A stretch of 64,000 bases of DNA from Druceiella hillmani (taxonomy: Eukaryota > Arthropoda > Insecta > Lepidoptera > Hepialidae). Position 1 is the first letter of the stretch, and every line of letters starts with the position of its first letter. Below the pieces are notes generated by a model. The model searched no databases, was not told where the DNA came from, and saw only the letters and a list, made by a program, of their open reading frames with translations. This document shows positions 2,976 to 63,603 of the stretch, piece after piece. Both the position numbers and the translations under genes were made by a program. The stretch lies in assembly GCA_039881145.1 (NCBI GenBank), contig JAYKKI010000023.1, positions 4,564,501 to 4,628,500 on the forward strand. The letters are read 5' to 3'.

Positions 2976-3776
2976 AATTTTTACCTGTTAACAAAAATCG
3001 TAAATTTAAAAAAGAACGCGAATTGAAAAACAAAAAAAAAATTAATAAACAGTGTCTGTAATCGATTTTTACTAGTTTCTAGTACTATTCACTTTTTGAT
3101 TAATTTTAATAAATATATAACATATTATACGTCCGCTTCTCATATCAAATTATTTTTTATTGAAAATGATGCTTGTTTCTGTTTAAGTAAGTATTATGTT
3201 TTTTTTTTTGAGATCAATAGAGAGAGGTAAACTGAACTGATTTGAATTGAATTCATTTACAAAAGTCAGAAAAGCGGGAGAATTCCTTATATAATGTTTT
3301 CTATTTTTGAATGTAAAATGTTTATTTCATTAAAAACTACCAGTAACAGTTCAATGACAGTTCGTAGTTTGATATGACCATAGATACATAATTATGTTCT
3401 GCTCTATTTGTATCTAAAATATATTATCAATAAATATTAATAAATAGACATATCAATTATGAAAATATAGCATATCTATTGCTTATTTTTAAGTCGTGTA
3501 TAAAGAGATGGAGGTTCCTTATTTTCGTGGTCTATGTCTCTATTATTTTATAAGATGTAGGGGTATTTTACTATTTTCAAGCAATATTATTTTATGCTAG
3601 TTTTTGTCAGTGACTTTGCCTGCGTGTATTTTCAACCACGCCGACGAAAATAATTCCTGAACCAATTAGACTATAAAAACGTTAAACTCTTTGTCGATTT
3701 AATGAACGCCATGTGCACCATTTATCGACATTTTGTATTTGTAAATTTTGATAACTCAGTAAAAATAATAGAATTT
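2976..3776. other. A+T-rich DNA, nothing recognised
   Basis: No supported feature was found on either strand. Confidence 0.5.
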
Positions 3777-3833
3777 CACAATTAAATGAAACTACGTGAT
3801 GTAGTATTATTTCTACTTTCTTTAATTTCTTTA

Positions 3834-3874
3834 CCACGACCTAGGTTTCGTTGTATTACAACATCTTCAGGTGG
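3834..3874 (-). ncRNA. hammerhead-ribozyme-like fold, left arm
   Basis: Read on the minus strand: stem I CCAC (3874-3871), core CUGAAGA (3870-3864), one extra U (3863), stem II GUUGU-AAU-ACAAC, GAA, the palindromic stem III ACCUAGGU (3846-3839), C17 (3838) and stem I closing GUGG (3837-3834). These are the elements of a type I hammerhead with a very short stem III, in the order expected for those in Penelope-like elements and retrozymes. The departure from consensus is the unpaired U between A9 and stem II. Folding is seen in the sequence. Catalysis is not shown. Confidence 0.5.
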
Positions 3875-3923
3875 GATATTAGCAAAGATTCTTGATCAAT
3901 CAGAATTAATCTTTGCTAATATC

Positions 3924-3964
3924 CCCCCTGAAGATGTTGTAATACAACGAAACCTAGGTCGTGG
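3924..3964 (+). ncRNA. hammerhead-ribozyme-like fold, right arm
   Basis: The same architecture on the plus strand: core CUGAAGA 3928-3934, extra U 3935, stem II 3936-3948, GAA 3949-3951, palindromic stem III ACCUAGGU 3952-3959, C17 at 3960, stem I strand GUGG 3961-3964. The other stem I strand (3924-3927) is CCCC instead of CCAC, so one of four base pairs is lost. That is the single substitution separating the two arms. This copy is expected to be weaker than the left arm. Confidence 0.45.
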
Positions 3965-4021
3965 TAAAGAAATTAAAGAAAGTAGAAATAATACTACATC
4001 ACGTAGTTTCATTTATTTGTG

Positions 4022-5945
4022 AATAATGAATTTCTACAAAATTAACGCCAAATATATTCAATAGAATTTCATTCTGCAGAAGTTGTGCTATATATGGAGT
4101 TAAATCGTATCCTATATCTTAAATCAAATCATGAAATATATTTATTTTAAGATTTACTGCTTGATTAGGCGTGATTGAGTAACAAACATACAATATTCGG
4201 ACCTTTCCATTTTTAACATTGAAGGGATTTCATTGTTACATGCATACAAATTAATAGAAACAGAATGTTAACGAAAATAACAGTAAACTATTCGCAAATT
4301 ATATTAACTCAGTAAAGTTAACATTTCTATAATAGTATGATGATGCCCTTAATTATATCGTATATACACAGTTTGATATCAACATGTATCCACTTACATA
4401 CTCAAATATGCCAATGAATAAGACTGATGATCCCGCAAATTCTTGGTCAATATAATTAATGTTGTTTCACTTTGATTATAATTAAATTTATTATTTTGTA
4501 AACACGCAAACACAGAGACGTTACAGTTAGAAATATATTTGTTTCATTTCATTAGCGATAAATATACTAATCATTTGACGTTTATTATAAATAACGACCG
4601 CGCATTTAAATTAATTTATTTTCACATACTGTAAATTAATCTCGTTCCACTGCGTTCACGGTCAGGCGGTTCGTTGTGTACAGTCGAATGCAGTGGGAAA
4701 TTAATGGTTTCAATTAGAATTTGGATTTTGATGGGTTCGGGGAGGGTTCAAAAGTTTCTATTCCTGATTTACGTAGATATGAAAATCAGGACGAAGTAAA
4801 ATAATGCGTAAAATACAACGTTATTTTAATAAAGAAATACGCGAAAGTTTGTATATCAAGGTTTTTATTCATCATTATACTTAATATTGAATGGGCACTT
4901 ATATCTACATCGCAGCAAATTGGAGATGAAAGAAGGGGATAAAGCCAAGGTGTTTAACGTCACATTGCCCTGAGCAAAATATTTTGTTGTTTAATTATGG
5001 AAACGATTGTCAAATAGTCACACTTTCTATTTTAATCGATTACTTTTTAAGAAATTTAATTATTTCGGGTGTATATTAAATGAGCTTTGGAGAGAGTAGA
5101 GCAAGATGAGATCTAAAACCTCTGAATTGCCCTTCTAAATATGTCTTTAGATATATTATGAAAATATGGCGTAAATTTTTAATTATCTGCCTAAGAGGAA
5201 AGTGATAGGAAATCGAAAAAGGGTGAACCCGTACCATTTCGTGCAATGAGTGATACCTTGAATTCTTTAGCACTTCACTCGCCACTTGGCTTCACCTGGC
5301 TTCTAGAATCCTAACCGGTTTTACATTAATAAGATGTACATACAGCAAACGAAGTGATGACACGTTCATGTCAACACTGGAAATTTTTCAACGCTATCCG
5401 ACCTTAAACGCACGCTCTTAACGTATTCGAGTCACAACATTGCACATTGCAATTTGTTTACTGTAATACGCGAGTACTTGCGCCATAATCTGCATACATT
5501 ATGAGACAATAATAACTAACGGTCGCATGCACCAGAGATCAGGTATCAAACACAGTGTAGGTATATAGGCGGCCTTAGGATCATCGTTACTTGTCTATGA
5601 TAATGAGTTCATGCTGTCAAAGGCTTAGCGACACGTGGCTAGTTACAGGCCTAGTTAAAATAATTAACGCGTTGCCGTCTGCACGGCATCGAGATTAGGG
5701 TTGCCAGATATTCAGATTGTTCTGAGATTTTCGGAGATTTATGCAAGAATATTTTAGTATTAATGGTATTTTGACGTAATCATAACCCTCAATAGCGTTA
5801 CCTGATTTAGTCGTTTGCAAGTATACGATTTTGTCAACGAGGGGATGCCCAAGAACTTAGGCAAATTAAAATATTCTTCAGGAGAATTTGAAGTTTTTTG
5901 TGACAGACGAAGTTTCCGGGAATACTTACAGAGTAAGCCGGCTAA

Positions 5946-5950
<5 letters not shown>
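4022..5950. other. intergenic DNA, nothing recognised
   Basis: The DNA is unique-looking and A+T-rich. Short open frames (for example 69 codons at 5076-5285, minus) lack any family signature. A slightly more mixed-composition stretch at 5270-5720 holds no identifiable gene. Confidence 0.5.

Positions 5951-6002
<52 letters not shown>
5951..6002. repeat. (TA)n microsatellite
   Basis: About 26 uninterrupted TA dinucleotides. An open frame reading through it is not evidence of a protein. Confidence 0.97.
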
Positions 6003-6008
<6 letters not shown>

Positions 6009-6166
6009 AAGTAAGTGTACAATGTGCATGCCGCTAAAACTCAGAAACGAGTCCCGGTTCGATCGAGGGAGTTATATGGTTTGGTAGCCCTCTATCTCCC
6101 ATCCATGAAGAAGGTTCCCGTTTTTACCTGAAGGGCGTGCTTAAGGGCTGGAAGTTTCTCCGTCTA

Positions 6167-6259
6167 GAAATTTATAGAACAGTCCAGAACACTCGAGAGT
6201 ATTTGAAAGCATTCCACAACATTTCAGAACATTCCGGAACATTCTGGAATGTTTGGGAA
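6167..6259. promoter_or_regulatory. heat-shock element array 1 (19 phased nGAAn units)
   Basis: Inverted GAA/TTC triplets occur every 5 bp in exact phase from 6167 to 6257. Ten of 19 are perfect and all but one of the rest have a single mismatch. The best stretch is GAA 6227, TTC 6232, GAA 6237, TTC 6242, GAA 6247. Alternating nGAAn/nTTCn pentamers are the binding site of heat-shock factor trimers. The core is also a 10-bp tandem repeat (GAACATTCCG-like), so the array may have grown by slippage. Confidence 0.85.
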
Positions 6260-6298
6260 TAGCCTCATCAGGGATAAAGAGGAATAGGGAGCATCGCG

Positions 6299-6377
6299 GA
6301 ACATCCCAGATCATTGTGGAATATTCCAGAACACTCTCGAATGTTGTGGAATGTTCTGGAATATTGTGGACCTTTCG
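6299..6377. promoter_or_regulatory. heat-shock element array 2 (16 phased nGAAn units)
   Basis: This is a second in-phase series of GAA/TTC triplets at 5-bp intervals from 6299 to 6374. Nine of 16 are perfect and the others have one mismatch. The strongest runs are GAA 6319, TTC 6324, GAA 6329 and GAA 6349, TTC 6354, GAA 6359. The array ends about 40 bp upstream of the TATA box, the usual position of the proximal element in hsp70-class promoters. It is out of phase with array 1. Confidence 0.85.
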
Positions 6378-6417
6378 AAGTCTTTTTTGTATGGGTGGGG
6401 CTACCTATTGGTAGGGG

Positions 6418-6460
6418 TATATAAAGCAACATTCGTCGTGGATTCGACCGACAGTTCGTT
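6418..6460 (+). promoter_or_regulatory. TATA core promoter and likely start site
   Basis: TATATAA at 6418-6424 is followed by ACAGTT at 6451-6456, close to the arthropod initiator TCAGTY, with the start A at about 6451-6453. That is 33-35 bp after the TATA box. The following leader (A-rich, GTGAAGTGCAGTGAGTGAA) resembles the A-rich leaders of insect hsp70 genes. With the two upstream heat-shock arrays this is a complete inducible promoter by sequence. Confidence 0.75.
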
Positions 6461-6619
6461 AACGTGAAGTGCAGTGAGTGAATAAAAACAAACAGTAAAG
6501 TATGAGTAATCAAAGTGATACAGTGGTTGAATATAAAACGAAAATAAAGTGTGAAAAGTGTTTAAAGTGTACTTAGTGTATCTTTTAATAAAAAGTTGAT
6601 TTGATTTATATTTTGTACA

Positions 6620-6676
6620 ATGCCTAAACGTAAAAAAGGAGGAGATTTTGCCAGTTCTGAAGCAAACTATACGTAG
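6620..6676 (+). CDS. 18-residue reading frame downstream of the heat-shock promoter
   Basis: This is the first reasonable ATG after the heat-shock promoter, about 167 bp into the predicted transcript. It encodes a short basic peptide beginning MPKRKKGGDF and stops at TAG 6674-6676. An AATAAA follows at 6781-6786, so a transcript of about 350 nt is plausible. The MPKRKK start resembles a nuclear-localisation-like N-terminus, but no family can be assigned. It may be the first codons of a longer protein whose body was deleted or interrupted by the stop, or an incidental frame in a non-coding heat-inducible RNA. Confidence 0.3.
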   Translation: MPKRKKGGDFASSEANYT

Positions 6677-6780
6677 CTTGTTCTCGAGTAGGAAATCGAA
6701 AAAAATTTATATATACCCCGGAAAACAAAATGAAAATGTTGTTTATAAACAAGTATTGTAAATAGTTAGAATATGTTTTC

Positions 6781-6786
6781 AATAAA
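6781..6786 (+). terminator. polyadenylation signal AATAAA
   Basis: AATAAA lies about 100 bp after the short frame, followed by a T-rich stretch. It fits the 3' end of a transcript from the 6.45-kb promoter. In A+T-rich DNA this hexamer is also frequent by chance. Another copy lies at 6587-6592 in the leader. Confidence 0.4.
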
Positions 6787-6875
6787 CATTTTTTACCTTT
6801 TATATTTTAAAATTTATCCTTTTATACTACCACACAATCTCATATCAACTCCCTGAGAGAAACCGGTTACCCCAG

Positions 6876-7857
6876 CTAGTATGGAATAAAAGTGTTTACG
6901 TTAGCTATACAATAATCCCTTTGATGTAGAAAACAAAAGATCTATACGTCTGTAACAGGAGGTAGAAAACTGGTTCTTGAGTTACCCCTTTGTCAAATCC
7001 TTATTTTTAGATAATAAGCTTGTTATATGGCTGACTGGTAAAAAAATAAAAGGGGACTTCCCCCGAATTTGTAAATATAAATCCAAAAAGTTGAGAAAAC
7101 CACGATTGTCGTCTTTTGGCCAAACATTACCATAGTTTCATTTATTTAGAAGAAAAACAAAAATGTTTTGATGGTTTCCGTATTAAACTACGATGAAAAT
7201 ATAAGTGAAAGGACATACAAACCAGAAAAGATATATAATAGACTGAATAGATTATAATCAAATCGTAGATGGTGCAAATAATGTAGGAACAATCAACGCC
7301 TATATAATTTAGATAATACATGAAGGAAAAATAATCTCATAACAAATACTGCGTTTTCATCCGTCCAAGAAACTTCATTTAACTACAGAGTAAGTTTTTA
7401 TTTCTAGCTTTGTCCGGCAAGAATTGGAATAAATTGTGAATGCATGCCAGAATTGAAGTTAGCGAAGGCTTGTCAATATTAATGAGATTCATAATCCATT
7501 ATTTTATTATTAGAATAACTATCGGTGTAGTGAAATTTTAGCCAATCTCCCTCATAGATATTACTTTTTCCTACCTTTTTATGTGCTACAAGGGTGTTGC
7601 CGTTCTAATGATGTATTTTGTTTAACGTGTAACATAGCGTTTACGTCGGCGCTTCATCAGGGATGTATTAAACGATAAAATTTGCTTATAAAAAGCTATG
7701 ATATCATTACCCATAATAATTAATTCTTATTGCATACACTTAATTTTAATAACTTTCTCTCAAAGATTTTAATTTTAAACAAGAATTGACGCTACAAGTA
7801 CGTATCGAAAGCTGAAAACCAAAATGAGTAATGAAAATTTATTTTCTTTTGACGATT
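6876..7857. other. A+T-rich DNA, nothing recognised
   Basis: No supported gene or repeat was found. Confidence 0.5.
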
Positions 7858-24545: not shown

Positions 24546-25030
24546 CGCGTCTTTCAAAGAACCATTTTGTGGAACGCATCTTTGGGATACGCTCATGGAT
24601 TCAATTTGAGAAATGCATCTTTGAGATCGCTCAAAGACTTACTTTTGAGAAATGTGTCTTTGACATACGCTTATGGATCCACTTTTGAGAAACGCGTCTG
24701 TGGGATACGCTCATGGATCCATTTTGAGAAATGCGTCTTTAAGATACGCTCATAGATATACTTTGAGAAATGTGTCTTTGTGACACGCTCATATATCCAC
24801 TTTGGGAAACGCATCTTTGAGATAAGCTAATGGATCTACGTTGAAAAACGCGTCTTTGGGATACGCTTATGGATCCCATTTGAGAAATGTGTCTTTGAGA
24901 CACGCTCATGGATCCACTTTGATAACCGCGTCTTTGAGATACGTTCATGAATCCACTACGAGAAAAGGGGCTTTGAGATACGCTCATTGATACACTTTGA
25001 GAAATGAGTCTTTGAGATACGTTTATGACG
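24546..25030. repeat. 39-bp minisatellite, about 12 copies
   Basis: The (G/A)TCTTTG(A/G)GATACGCTCA word recurs at 24578, 24617, 24656, 24696, 24735, 24774, 24813, 24852, 24891, 24930, 24969 and 25008, a 39-bp period with one 40-bp step. Each unit also has TGGATCCACTTTGAGAAA. As 39 is 13 codons, frames stay open across several units: minus 24739-24987 gives a 13-residue repeat (MSVSQRHISQSGS-like) and plus 24567-24755 gives WIHFEKRVFEIRS-like units. No start context or splice signal supports translation. Confidence 0.95.
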
Positions 25031-32617: not shown

Positions 32618-33109
32618 GTTCAATGTTTTTTTTATGTTATAAAGTCTTTTATTCTTGAAGTTTGGAAAAAACAAAGTTAAAATATAACAACAAATATAAA
32701 TCTCATGGCATAATAAGAATTGATTTTTTGGCCAGTAATTATTGTATCAGGTTTACATACTGCTGTTAAAATTGTATCTATAATAATATAATAAATATAT
32801 AAATTTTGCGAGATTGTTAGTTCGAGGTAATTTCGAAAATTGCCAACATATTTAATTTTTATTTTCACTTATGGAATTTCTGAGTTCTAACATAAACTAC
32901 ATTTTATATAATTTTATGTAATGGGTTTGAAGAAAATGACGTTTGAAATATAAAATTCGGAGAAAAACGTCTTCAAAAGGAGATTTATGGACTGTGCGAC
33001 ATAGTACGTAGAAGTTTGCATATATATTTATAGAGGAATCTTAAACAAGTAGGTAATACGTGAAATTAGGGGTAGTTTTAAGAAGGAAAATCCTGCGCTC
33101 TCAAAAATA
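32618..33109. other. intergenic DNA
   Basis: Nothing recognised. Confidence 0.5.
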
Positions 33110-33612
33110 ATTCTCTGTGGTGTAATTTTGGATTTTAGTGTCTCAGAAAACACCTATTTGTGGTGTAATTTTATGTACAGGTGTCTCACAAAAACCTCCC
33201 ATTTATGGTGCAATTTTAAGTACAGGTGTCTCAAAAATATCTCTTTATGGTGTAATTTTGTGTAAGGATGTCTCAAAAATACCTTTTCTCTATATAATAT
33301 TATGTGTGGATATCGCAAAACACCTCTTTGTGGTAAAATTTTATGTATGTGTCTCAAAAATACTTCCTTGTGGTGTAATTTTATGTATATGTATCTCAAA
33401 AATACCTCTTTGTGGTGTAATTTTAGGTATAGTTATCTCAAAAACACCTCTTTTTAGCGTAATTTTATGAACAGCTGTCTCAAAAACACCTATTTGTGGT
33501 GTTTTTGTATAGGTGTTTCAAATACACCTCATTGCGGTGTAATTTTATGTATAGGTGTCTCAAACACACCTCTTTGTGGTGTAATTTTATGTATATGTGT
33601 TTCAAATAATAA
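33110..33612. repeat. minisatellite of about 42 bp, about 12 copies
   Basis: The unit GGTGTCTCAAAAACACCTC, then TTTGTGGTGTAATTTTATGT repeats with the CTCA word at about 33141, 33184, 33230, 33271, 33312, 33352, 33394, 33437, 33478, 33517, 33559 and 33600. Most steps are 40-46 bp, so several units share a frame (plus 33138-33470 is open, with a 14-residue repeat like VSKIPLCGVILC). It ends about 80 bp before a Helitron-like terminus. Confidence 0.93.
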
Positions 33613-46865: not shown

Positions 46866-46869
46866 TAGG

Positions 46870-47530
46870 AAGGTGGATTGCAATGGACATTGTTTCACGT
46901 TCATGTTATAATTGCAATCTCTGTGCTCAATAATAATGCTCCTACCAACTGTTTGCAAACTATCATGTATCGTGTGAAGCTAGCGGAGTTTATCACACAT
47001 GGATGGGTGGTGACTTTGCAGTGGGTGCCGGGCCACGTAGGAATCCCTGGCAATGAAAAGTCCGACAGCAGGGCTAGGCCAGGTAGTAAGTCAATCCAGC
47101 CTGCCATACTAATCACATTCTATAGGACAAAAAACCTGATTATCTCATCCATTAACAGCACCATTTTCAAGAACCTAAAAGATTAAAACATTGGCAAAAA
47201 GTGGGAGACTCTCTCCGTGAAGGGGTCAATTTCGAGATACCTAAAGAGCAAAGGCTATTGCTCGTTTTGGATTGATTAAGGGTCAAGACTATCTACTAGT
47301 TCATCTCCAAAGGATCGGCTTGGCTGATGATGAGATTTAGGCGCTATGCGACTGTGCGCCAATGGACGGTGACCATTTTCGGCAACATTGTCGGATGTTA
47401 CTGTGAGACTTGGCGTCGAATAGTCGAAGGACCACCGACGGGCGTTGGCAAACTAACTGAGATTCTGTTGAGGGTCTTTTCGCTTGACGCCGCTGCTGAT
47501 TTTGAACTTAGCGGCCGTCATTGCTAGGAA
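46870..47530 (+). pseudogene. I-like LINE RNase H and C-terminal relic
   Basis: Frame 46878-47186 contains VVTLQWVPGHVGIPGNEKSD (about 47010-47070), the last RNase H box (WIPGHxGIxGNExAD) of LINEs that carry an RNase H domain. Further on, after shifts and stops, DYLLVHLQRIGLADDE and CDCAPMDGDHFRQ (47285-47380) match the C-terminal GH...L.HL.RIG...C..C...MD..H segment with its Cys/His residues. RNase H would remove the RNA template during second-strand synthesis. No reverse transcriptase was seen upstream, so this is a 5'-truncated dead copy. The antisense frame at 46901-47116 is a shadow. Confidence 0.75.
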
Positions 47531-62752: not shown

Positions 62753-63603
62753 TTAAAAAAAACTGTGCGATGTCGTTTTGGAGATCTTTAACTTCGAATT
62801 TTTTTTACGTAAATGATTATGTAGAGCCCTGAATAAATGGTAATCAGAGGACACAGTGCCTGGCGAATATGATGGATAAGTGAGTAGAACCCAGCCGAGC
62901 TCCTTTAATTTATCATAAGTACGTTTTGCAACACGTTGTCTAGCATTATCATGTAGAAAATAAACTCCATCCTGTTGACAGTTCATATTATACACAGTTC
63001 CCAATGAATACCCTTGATATTCCATCAGCAGCTGAACATCACCTTTTTGGCACTTATTTCAGGTTTGGATATTGAAACTCTTGTTTTTCCGATACCCAGC
63101 CATTGACGTTTGCGTGTATGGTTAACATATGTAACCCACTTTTCATTGCCTGTTATTAACTGATTCAGTTAGTCGAAGTTACTTTTCAATATCAATAACT
63201 GTTGACAAGTATCAACTCTACAATGAAGGTTATATGATGATAACTCGTAGGGTATTCACACACCGTATTTTGAAACTTTTCCCAATTCGTGTAAATGTGT
63301 TTCTATGGTGCCGTGACTTCAGTATAACTCATCTGCCAATTAACGAGTCGTCAGTCGAGGATCCTCCTCAATTAGGTGTCATAATCGTCAAACGTTCAAT
63401 TCAACAGGACGTCCGGTACGGGGTTCGTCCTCAAGATCGTAATCCTCATTCCTGAACTTTTTGAACAAAATCTTTGCCGTCGCGTAAGACACCGTGGACT
63501 CACTCATCGCATGATGTATATTATTTGTGGCAGTCTTTGTATTCTAACCCAGACGAAATTGGTAAAGTAATAGAATCCGTATTTGATATCGATTTAAATC
63601 CAT
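62753..63603 (-). pseudogene. mariner transposase, near full length but broken
   Basis: The reading frame begins at ATG 63603 (MDLNRYQIRILLLYQFRLG), the mariner helix-turn-helix start. It continues with FKKFRNEDYDLEDEPRTGRP (about 63400-63475), ITGNEKWVTYVNHTRKRQWL (about 63095-63160) and FLHDNARQRVAKRT...SDYHLF (62860-62975). The second and third catalytic Asp are 34 residues apart, the DD34D signature. The first catalytic Asp is Asn here (TGNEKW for TGDEKW). In-frame stops occur after FRLG, near PVELNV and at FSC*WNIKG, and at least one frameshift is present. The copy is inactive. Confidence 0.88.

Follow-up and report, generated by a model that had tools for sequence, protein, structure and literature searches.

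Heat-responsive rolling-circle transposons have been described in Caenorhabditis. RNA of the C. elegans element Helitron1_CE rises fast upon heat shock; HSF-1 binds the heat-shock elements (HSEs) of this transposon, and the induction depends on how much HSF-1 is present (PMC6765114). HSF-1 also binds Helitrons that lie upstream of C. elegans fbxa-215, and thermotolerance is altered when these are deleted (PMC12062965). On tetra- and pentameric HSEs, HSF-1 DNA-binding domains show added cooperativity (PMC9148306). A survey of UCSC genomes reported HSE-enriched Helitrons only in its three Caenorhabditis species, and its authors suggested that such elements may be limited to that genus (Garrigues et al., PMC6927752). 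The HSE motif of the cross-species scan (section 9 of that paper) differs from the motif in its methods (section 27), a discrepancy that may affect the strength of the exclusion of other species.

The insect family described here resembles Helitron1_CE and HelitronY of Caenorhabditis (PMC6765114, PMC6927752) in being a rolling-circle transposon with clustered tandem HSEs, and in having many non-autonomous copies that spread them; it differs in its host, an insect, and in carrying a single 42-unit phased array. HSF-1-dependent heat induction of Rep-helicase RNA is reported for the worm elements and is, for the insect family, predicted from sequence. Another parallel is ONSEN/COPIA78 of the Brassicaceae (PMC5059998), likewise a transposon with a heat-responsive cis-regulatory region of its own (a response that we predict for the insect Helitron), but a retrotransposon of plants. 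An HSE-bearing insect Helitron was not found in the open-licence literature searched by title or start of abstract, nor was anything relevant found on Helitrons of caddisflies. An HSE-promoter Helitron is of a kind already known; the insect host group appears to be new, and the array seems unusually long. We consider it probable, at roughly 80%, that the feature represents a Helitron family promoter, in which about 42 phased HSF half-sites would tie transcription of the Rep-helicase (RepHel) to stress.

A phased HSE array upstream of a predicted core promoter

In the window, the 64-kb stretch of DNA that was analysed, GAA and TTC units alternate every 5 bp over 35 units, 19 of them perfect (Table 1). 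A sequence-only reading had described this alternation as 19 and then 16 consecutive units, with nearly all of the imperfect ones a single mismatch away, and the triplet scores agree: the block from 6167 matches at 47 of 57 triplet bases (10 perfect units) and that from 6299 at 41 of 48 (9 perfect units), which by arithmetic leaves 15 imperfect units with one mismatch and one with two. Elsewhere in the window the top scores are 30/57 for 19 units and 27/48 for 16, and the five perfect three-unit HSE matches in the window all lie within the array. The longest unbroken run, each unit being required to match at two or more of its three bases, is 16 units, and the score over 10 units is 27/30. With at least three inverted nGAAn units in 5-bp phase, the array has the make-up of an HSF-type promoter. 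The same reading had spoken of two arrays, but the two blocks of the window copy, offset by 2 bp, correspond to a single continuous array of 42 units in the majority sequence of 40 copies (below).

The TATA box and initiator-like ACAGTT that had been noted after the array were both located (TATAAA at 6420-6425; ACAGTT at 6451-6456). Downstream of the majority array the order is TATATAAAG, TCAGTT, a 168-nt leader and the RepHel start codon, and the A of TCAGTT lies 33 bp past the first T of TATAAA. By its layout, the array is the putative HSE-type upstream part of a TATA/initiator promoter, and an HSF-responsive function is predicted for it.

Table 1. Features of the Helitron copy in the window (window positions)
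Feature	Position	Strand	Remark
Internally deleted Helitron copy; 5' TC after A at 5946, 3' CTAG before T at 6880	5947..6879	+	Family boundaries
(AT)n tract	5950..6007	+	
5' subterminal Helitron sequence common to the family	6008..6164	+	40/40 scored places, 90-100% identity
HSE array, first block, 19 units, triplets from 6167	6165..6259	+	
Degraded middle of array; HSE-like in family majority, lost in window copy; net 2-bp phase slip	6260..6298	+	
HSE array, second block, 16 units	6299..6376	+	
TATA box TATATAAAG	6418..6426	+	TATAAA exact in 31/40 copies
Initiator-like ACAGTT	6451..6456	+	Majority TCAGTT, exact in 26/40 copies; predicted start site 6453
Predicted 5' leader	6453..6619	+	40% A, 7% C (composition over 6452-6619)
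RepHel frame remnant: start codon and 18 codons, then stop	6620..6676	+	Rest deleted at ~6666
Helitron 3' end, ending CTAG	6668..6879	+	

The window also contains a minus-strand frame (62753-63058) that presumably resembles a fragment of a mariner transposase, and a frame (46869-47186) that we take to resemble the RNase H end of a non-LTR retrotransposon. Two minisatellites (24562-25021 and 33099-33606) have units of 39 bp and 42 bp and about 12 copies each, and another dispersed repeat (3719-4067) has 30 matches in the fetched Helitron loci. Rfam and tRNA scans gave 0 hits.

The array belongs to a dispersed repeat family

We searched the window's own assembly (2,586,002,920 bases in 181 contigs) with window positions 6100-6500 (401 bp, array included). 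Among 1213 first-look candidates, 40 were scored, all of which align across at least 95% of the query or nearly so; apart from the window itself, which accounts for the exception, the scored copies are 81-84% identical to the query (39/40). Twenty extra short rows in this search represent array stretches matching elsewhere within the array. The 40-copy alignment used throughout consists of the window and the other 39 scored places, all picked with the array-containing query. To avoid choosing copies by their array, a control search was made with the 5' flank alone (6008-6165); it yielded 1064 candidates, and all 40 scored places matched at 90-100%. Thirty-three of these places were new, and the 20 best-ranked were fetched. 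In 17 of the 20 the 10-unit score is at least 22/30 (the other three score 17, 18 and 20), while the highest score among 2000 random window stretches is 19.

Twenty copies read out to ~9.8 kb reveal a common element of up to ~5 kb with many internal deletions. Over 606 sites the copies diverge from the majority by a mean of 9.7% (range 6.8-17.4%). The window copy consists of the 5' 650 bp joined to the last 210 bp at ~6666, and about 4.2 kb is missing relative to copy L022. Its exact 5' base was read by eye through the AT tract, which was probably expanded from the AT-rich 5' terminus seen in other copies. Going by its structure, the window copy is a decayed Helitron that lacks nearly all coding sequence and has kept its putative promoter.

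These findings bear on the proposal that the array drives one particular host locus, as the promoter of a heat-shock gene or of a heat-shock non-coding RNA. The presence of a TATA box, an initiator and a leader would fit such a promoter, but the block recurs genome-wide at Helitron 5' ends, and the reading frame begins like a Helitron protein. A host-gene promoter was dropped as a candidate since the block repeats genome-wide, and we regard this origin as the least credible of those considered. The earlier description of a promoter in gene-less DNA thus stands as to its HSE/TATA/initiator form but not as to its setting, a dispersed Helitron family whose transposase coding sequence has been lost at this locus. 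Judged from these comparisons, the array block is the predicted promoter of that family and not of a single unusual host heat-shock gene.

Identity and state of the family

An LTR retrotransposon was considered first and was dropped on finding Rep and PIF1 domains. The Rep domain (Helitron_like_N, PF14214) was matched in copy L016 at 6.2e-23, and in copy L022 PF14214 is followed, in order, by the PIF1 helicase (PF05970), which was matched at 1.1e-18; a Rep domain and a PIF1-like helicase in one element are the mark of the Helitron superfamily. The ends are also those of Helitrons, which start with TC, finish with CTRR and insert between A and T: read by eye, A|TCAA marks the 5' end of 20 of 40 copies, and CTRR|T the 3' end of nine of the 13 copies shown, the window copy included. 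The remaining ends are decayed or replaced by AT repeats. Two copies were folded for a 3'-end hairpin, and neither did better than shuffles.

The best relative of the Rep piece is a protein of Eumeta japonica (P0001), with 82% identity over 69% of the piece; the named hits are mostly from arthropods (moths, spiders, Drosophila), and a snail and a plant each supply one lower-ranking hit. The RepHel frame begins MPKRK(K/R)GG in the window and L022 (MPKRKRGG in the latter), and P0001 begins MPRRKRGG. The longest open frame in 20 long copies is 211 aa, and among hits at least 74% identical to P0001 (best 150 hits scored) HSE-family frames reach at most 323 aa. Because the longest frames are only 211-323 aa among the best candidates scored, the HSE-Helitron family looks dead.

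In viral contigs, a search for HSE-pattern stretches gave 16 matches, none of which is a relative. The exact 6-unit HSE pattern occurs there in 15 stretches, taken as chance background. This pattern is a poor detector, because among the family copies compared with it, six consecutive perfect units occur in L032 alone.

Design of the majority array

In the 40-copy majority, 42 successive 5-bp units all match at two or more of three bases, 26 being perfect and 16 having one mismatch; assuming independent bases at window composition, such a run is expected by chance at ~10^-30 per starting point. Folded onto GAA, the columns read G in 36, A in 39 and A in 35 of the 42 units. Single copies are more worn: their median longest run is 20 units (range 9-37), with a median of 20 perfect units of 42.

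Could the array have grown as an internal Helitron minisatellite by 10-bp duplications, HSE-like by resemblance and with no HSF function? We think this unlikely, though it is the strongest of the alternatives. Of the 34 gaps in the array, 16 are exactly 10 bp long, whereas the flanks have none of that length among 30 and 53 gaps; the array copies are now decaying neutrally (below), and a Drosophila Helitron with internal tandem repeats is reported to have given rise to a satellite (PMC11431837). Such gaps are to be expected from slippage between repeats, and 10-bp indel steps preserve the array's phase. Against the minisatellite origin, both the GAAnnTTC and the TTCnnGAA spacing are kept across all 42 majority units despite variable linkers, so that they do not represent a single repeated decamer. 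Moreover, the array has a fixed place upstream of the TATA box, initiator and start codon. The possibility raised earlier of a genome-wide 10-bp satellite without promoters is therefore borne out only in that the array is repeated genome-wide; it is repeated within a Helitron, with the promoter at a fixed position.

The array might instead serve another factor, such as TEAD/Scalloped, whose motif is CATTCC, or STAT. The linkers are mostly CA or TG, whereby some CATTCC or GGAATG words arise. There are three of each in the 42 majority units, whereas every one of the 42 agrees, in phase, with the HSE triplet to within one mismatch, and STAT sites need a spacing other than that of the array. We rate a role for these factors as highly improbable.

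Decay of the copies

Across copies, the majority base has a frequency of 0.907 in triplets, 0.884 in linkers and 0.917 in flanks. When sites were matched for composition, the change rates of the triplets did not differ for C/G outside CpG (p=0.11) or for A/T (p=0.15), and they were raised at CpG sites (p=0.043); after matching by base type, GAA/TTC triplets show no excess conservation among the copies. Selection on the array after insertion had been a candidate on the raw count of shared variants, at 6 of 126 sites in triplets vs 13 of 84 in linkers (p=0.0125 for minor counts of 7 or more; p ranges from 0.122 to 0.0125 across seven cut-offs). It is not claimed, because the composition-matched rates show no excess conservation. 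The copies now decay neutrally, so that the case for function of the HSE array rests on the design and position of the majority and not on present constraint.

Comparison with host hsp70 promoters and other Helitrons

The sequence-only reading had held the array to be far longer than those of ordinary hsp promoters, and five hsp70 genes of the same genome bear it out. Their longest in-phase runs are 4, 4, 4, 6 and 6 units, vs 42 in the Helitron majority, and their 10-unit scores are 16, 15, 17, 21 and 22 of 30. At least two of the five resemble the Helitron in having HSEs upstream of a TATA box and leader, and the two with 6-unit runs have TATATAAG. A score of 22 is not peculiar to the Helitron, because two hsp70 promoters reach 21 and 22; it is the run length that is peculiar. 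The closest same-size hits of the host hsp70 protein (among the best 120 of 7985) are from moths and butterflies at 81-85%, with some beetles similar, and a few longer multi-domain entries (mammals, plant, worm and others) stand higher on raw score. Of eight contig starts viewed, that of contig 1 has CCTAA repeats, 148 in 800 bases, one is N and six are without such repeats; CCTAA is of the arthropod telomere type. Taken together, the telomere repeat and the hsp70 protein suggest that the host is an insect, probably close to Lepidoptera and possibly a caddisfly.

Helitrons are known to capture host sequence, and the family could have acquired a host hsp promoter instead of growing its own array, with the hsp-like TATA/HSE layout in favour of this. 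Between window positions 6008-6640 and the five hsp70 upstream regions there is one 22-nt match, inside HSEs (E 0.051), and comparing the 40 copies with hsp70 yielded, among the matches listed, AT repeats plus a handful that are short and weak. Capture from hsp70 was rejected, no homology having been found to the five upstream regions, and capture of an hsp promoter in general is improbable, slightly more so than the minisatellite origin.

PF14214 gave 5330 first-look candidates in the genome, and the best 150, which were scored, include open frames of up to 1490 aa. For four other Helitrons (frames of 1119, 1164, 1490 and 1127 aa), a 1.6-kb stretch from 0.6-0.8 kb upstream of the Rep match was read, long enough to take in the array's offset as seen in L022. 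Two of them show a likely start codon, and there is no array in the 1.0-1.2 kb preceding it (10-unit scores 16 and 16); for the remaining two, in which the start codon was not located, the scores of 18 and 18 are within the random range. Not all Helitrons of this genome share the array, because these four long-frame elements are without it in the stretches read; within those stretches, related Helitrons thrive without an array. Position 326 of locus L098, upstream of a long-frame Helitron, has a weak 6-unit HSE-like run (one perfect unit), with a 10-unit score within chance.

Several Helitron loci (C1:30079211, C10:6283291, C14:23621745, C60:6370167 and others) have the same scores and frames of equal length (1119 aa, in some cases 1116 or 1164 aa), pointing to a probable recent burst of Helitrons. 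At locus L013, oriented positions 5932-6998, a few kb downstream of an HSE-family copy, hold frames of a second Helitron-like protein, by eye unlike that of the HSE family; no other array was found at this locus.

A proposed mechanism and its significance

We infer that the 40-copy majority approximates the ancestor, and we further postulate HSF binding, heat induction, stress-coupled transposition and effects on neighbouring host genes. The ancestral element would have carried one phased array of ~42 HSF half-sites directly upstream of a TATA/initiator core promoter, and the leader after this promoter would have fed the start codon of the Rep-helicase. Heat or another proteotoxic stress would most likely activate HSF, whose trimers would bind the array cooperatively; RepHel would then be strongly transcribed, and transposition would thereby be tied to stress. 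The window copy would be a dead, internally deleted descendant in which the promoter was kept.

A broader scenario, which we put forward tentatively and rate somewhat below even, is that an insect Helitron lineage gained its 42-unit HSF array independently of Caenorhabditis, tied its transposase to heat and spread about a thousand cassettes. In this scenario many of the cassettes may have retained HSF binding, and may either place neighbouring genes under heat control or serve as a sink for the factor. With an insect family that bears a long phased array, HSE-loaded Helitrons would become a recurrent strategy, and there would be a second system for testing heat-driven Helitron bursts and rewired heat-shock regulation, in which the Helitrons of the same genome that seem to be without the array would serve as a natural control.
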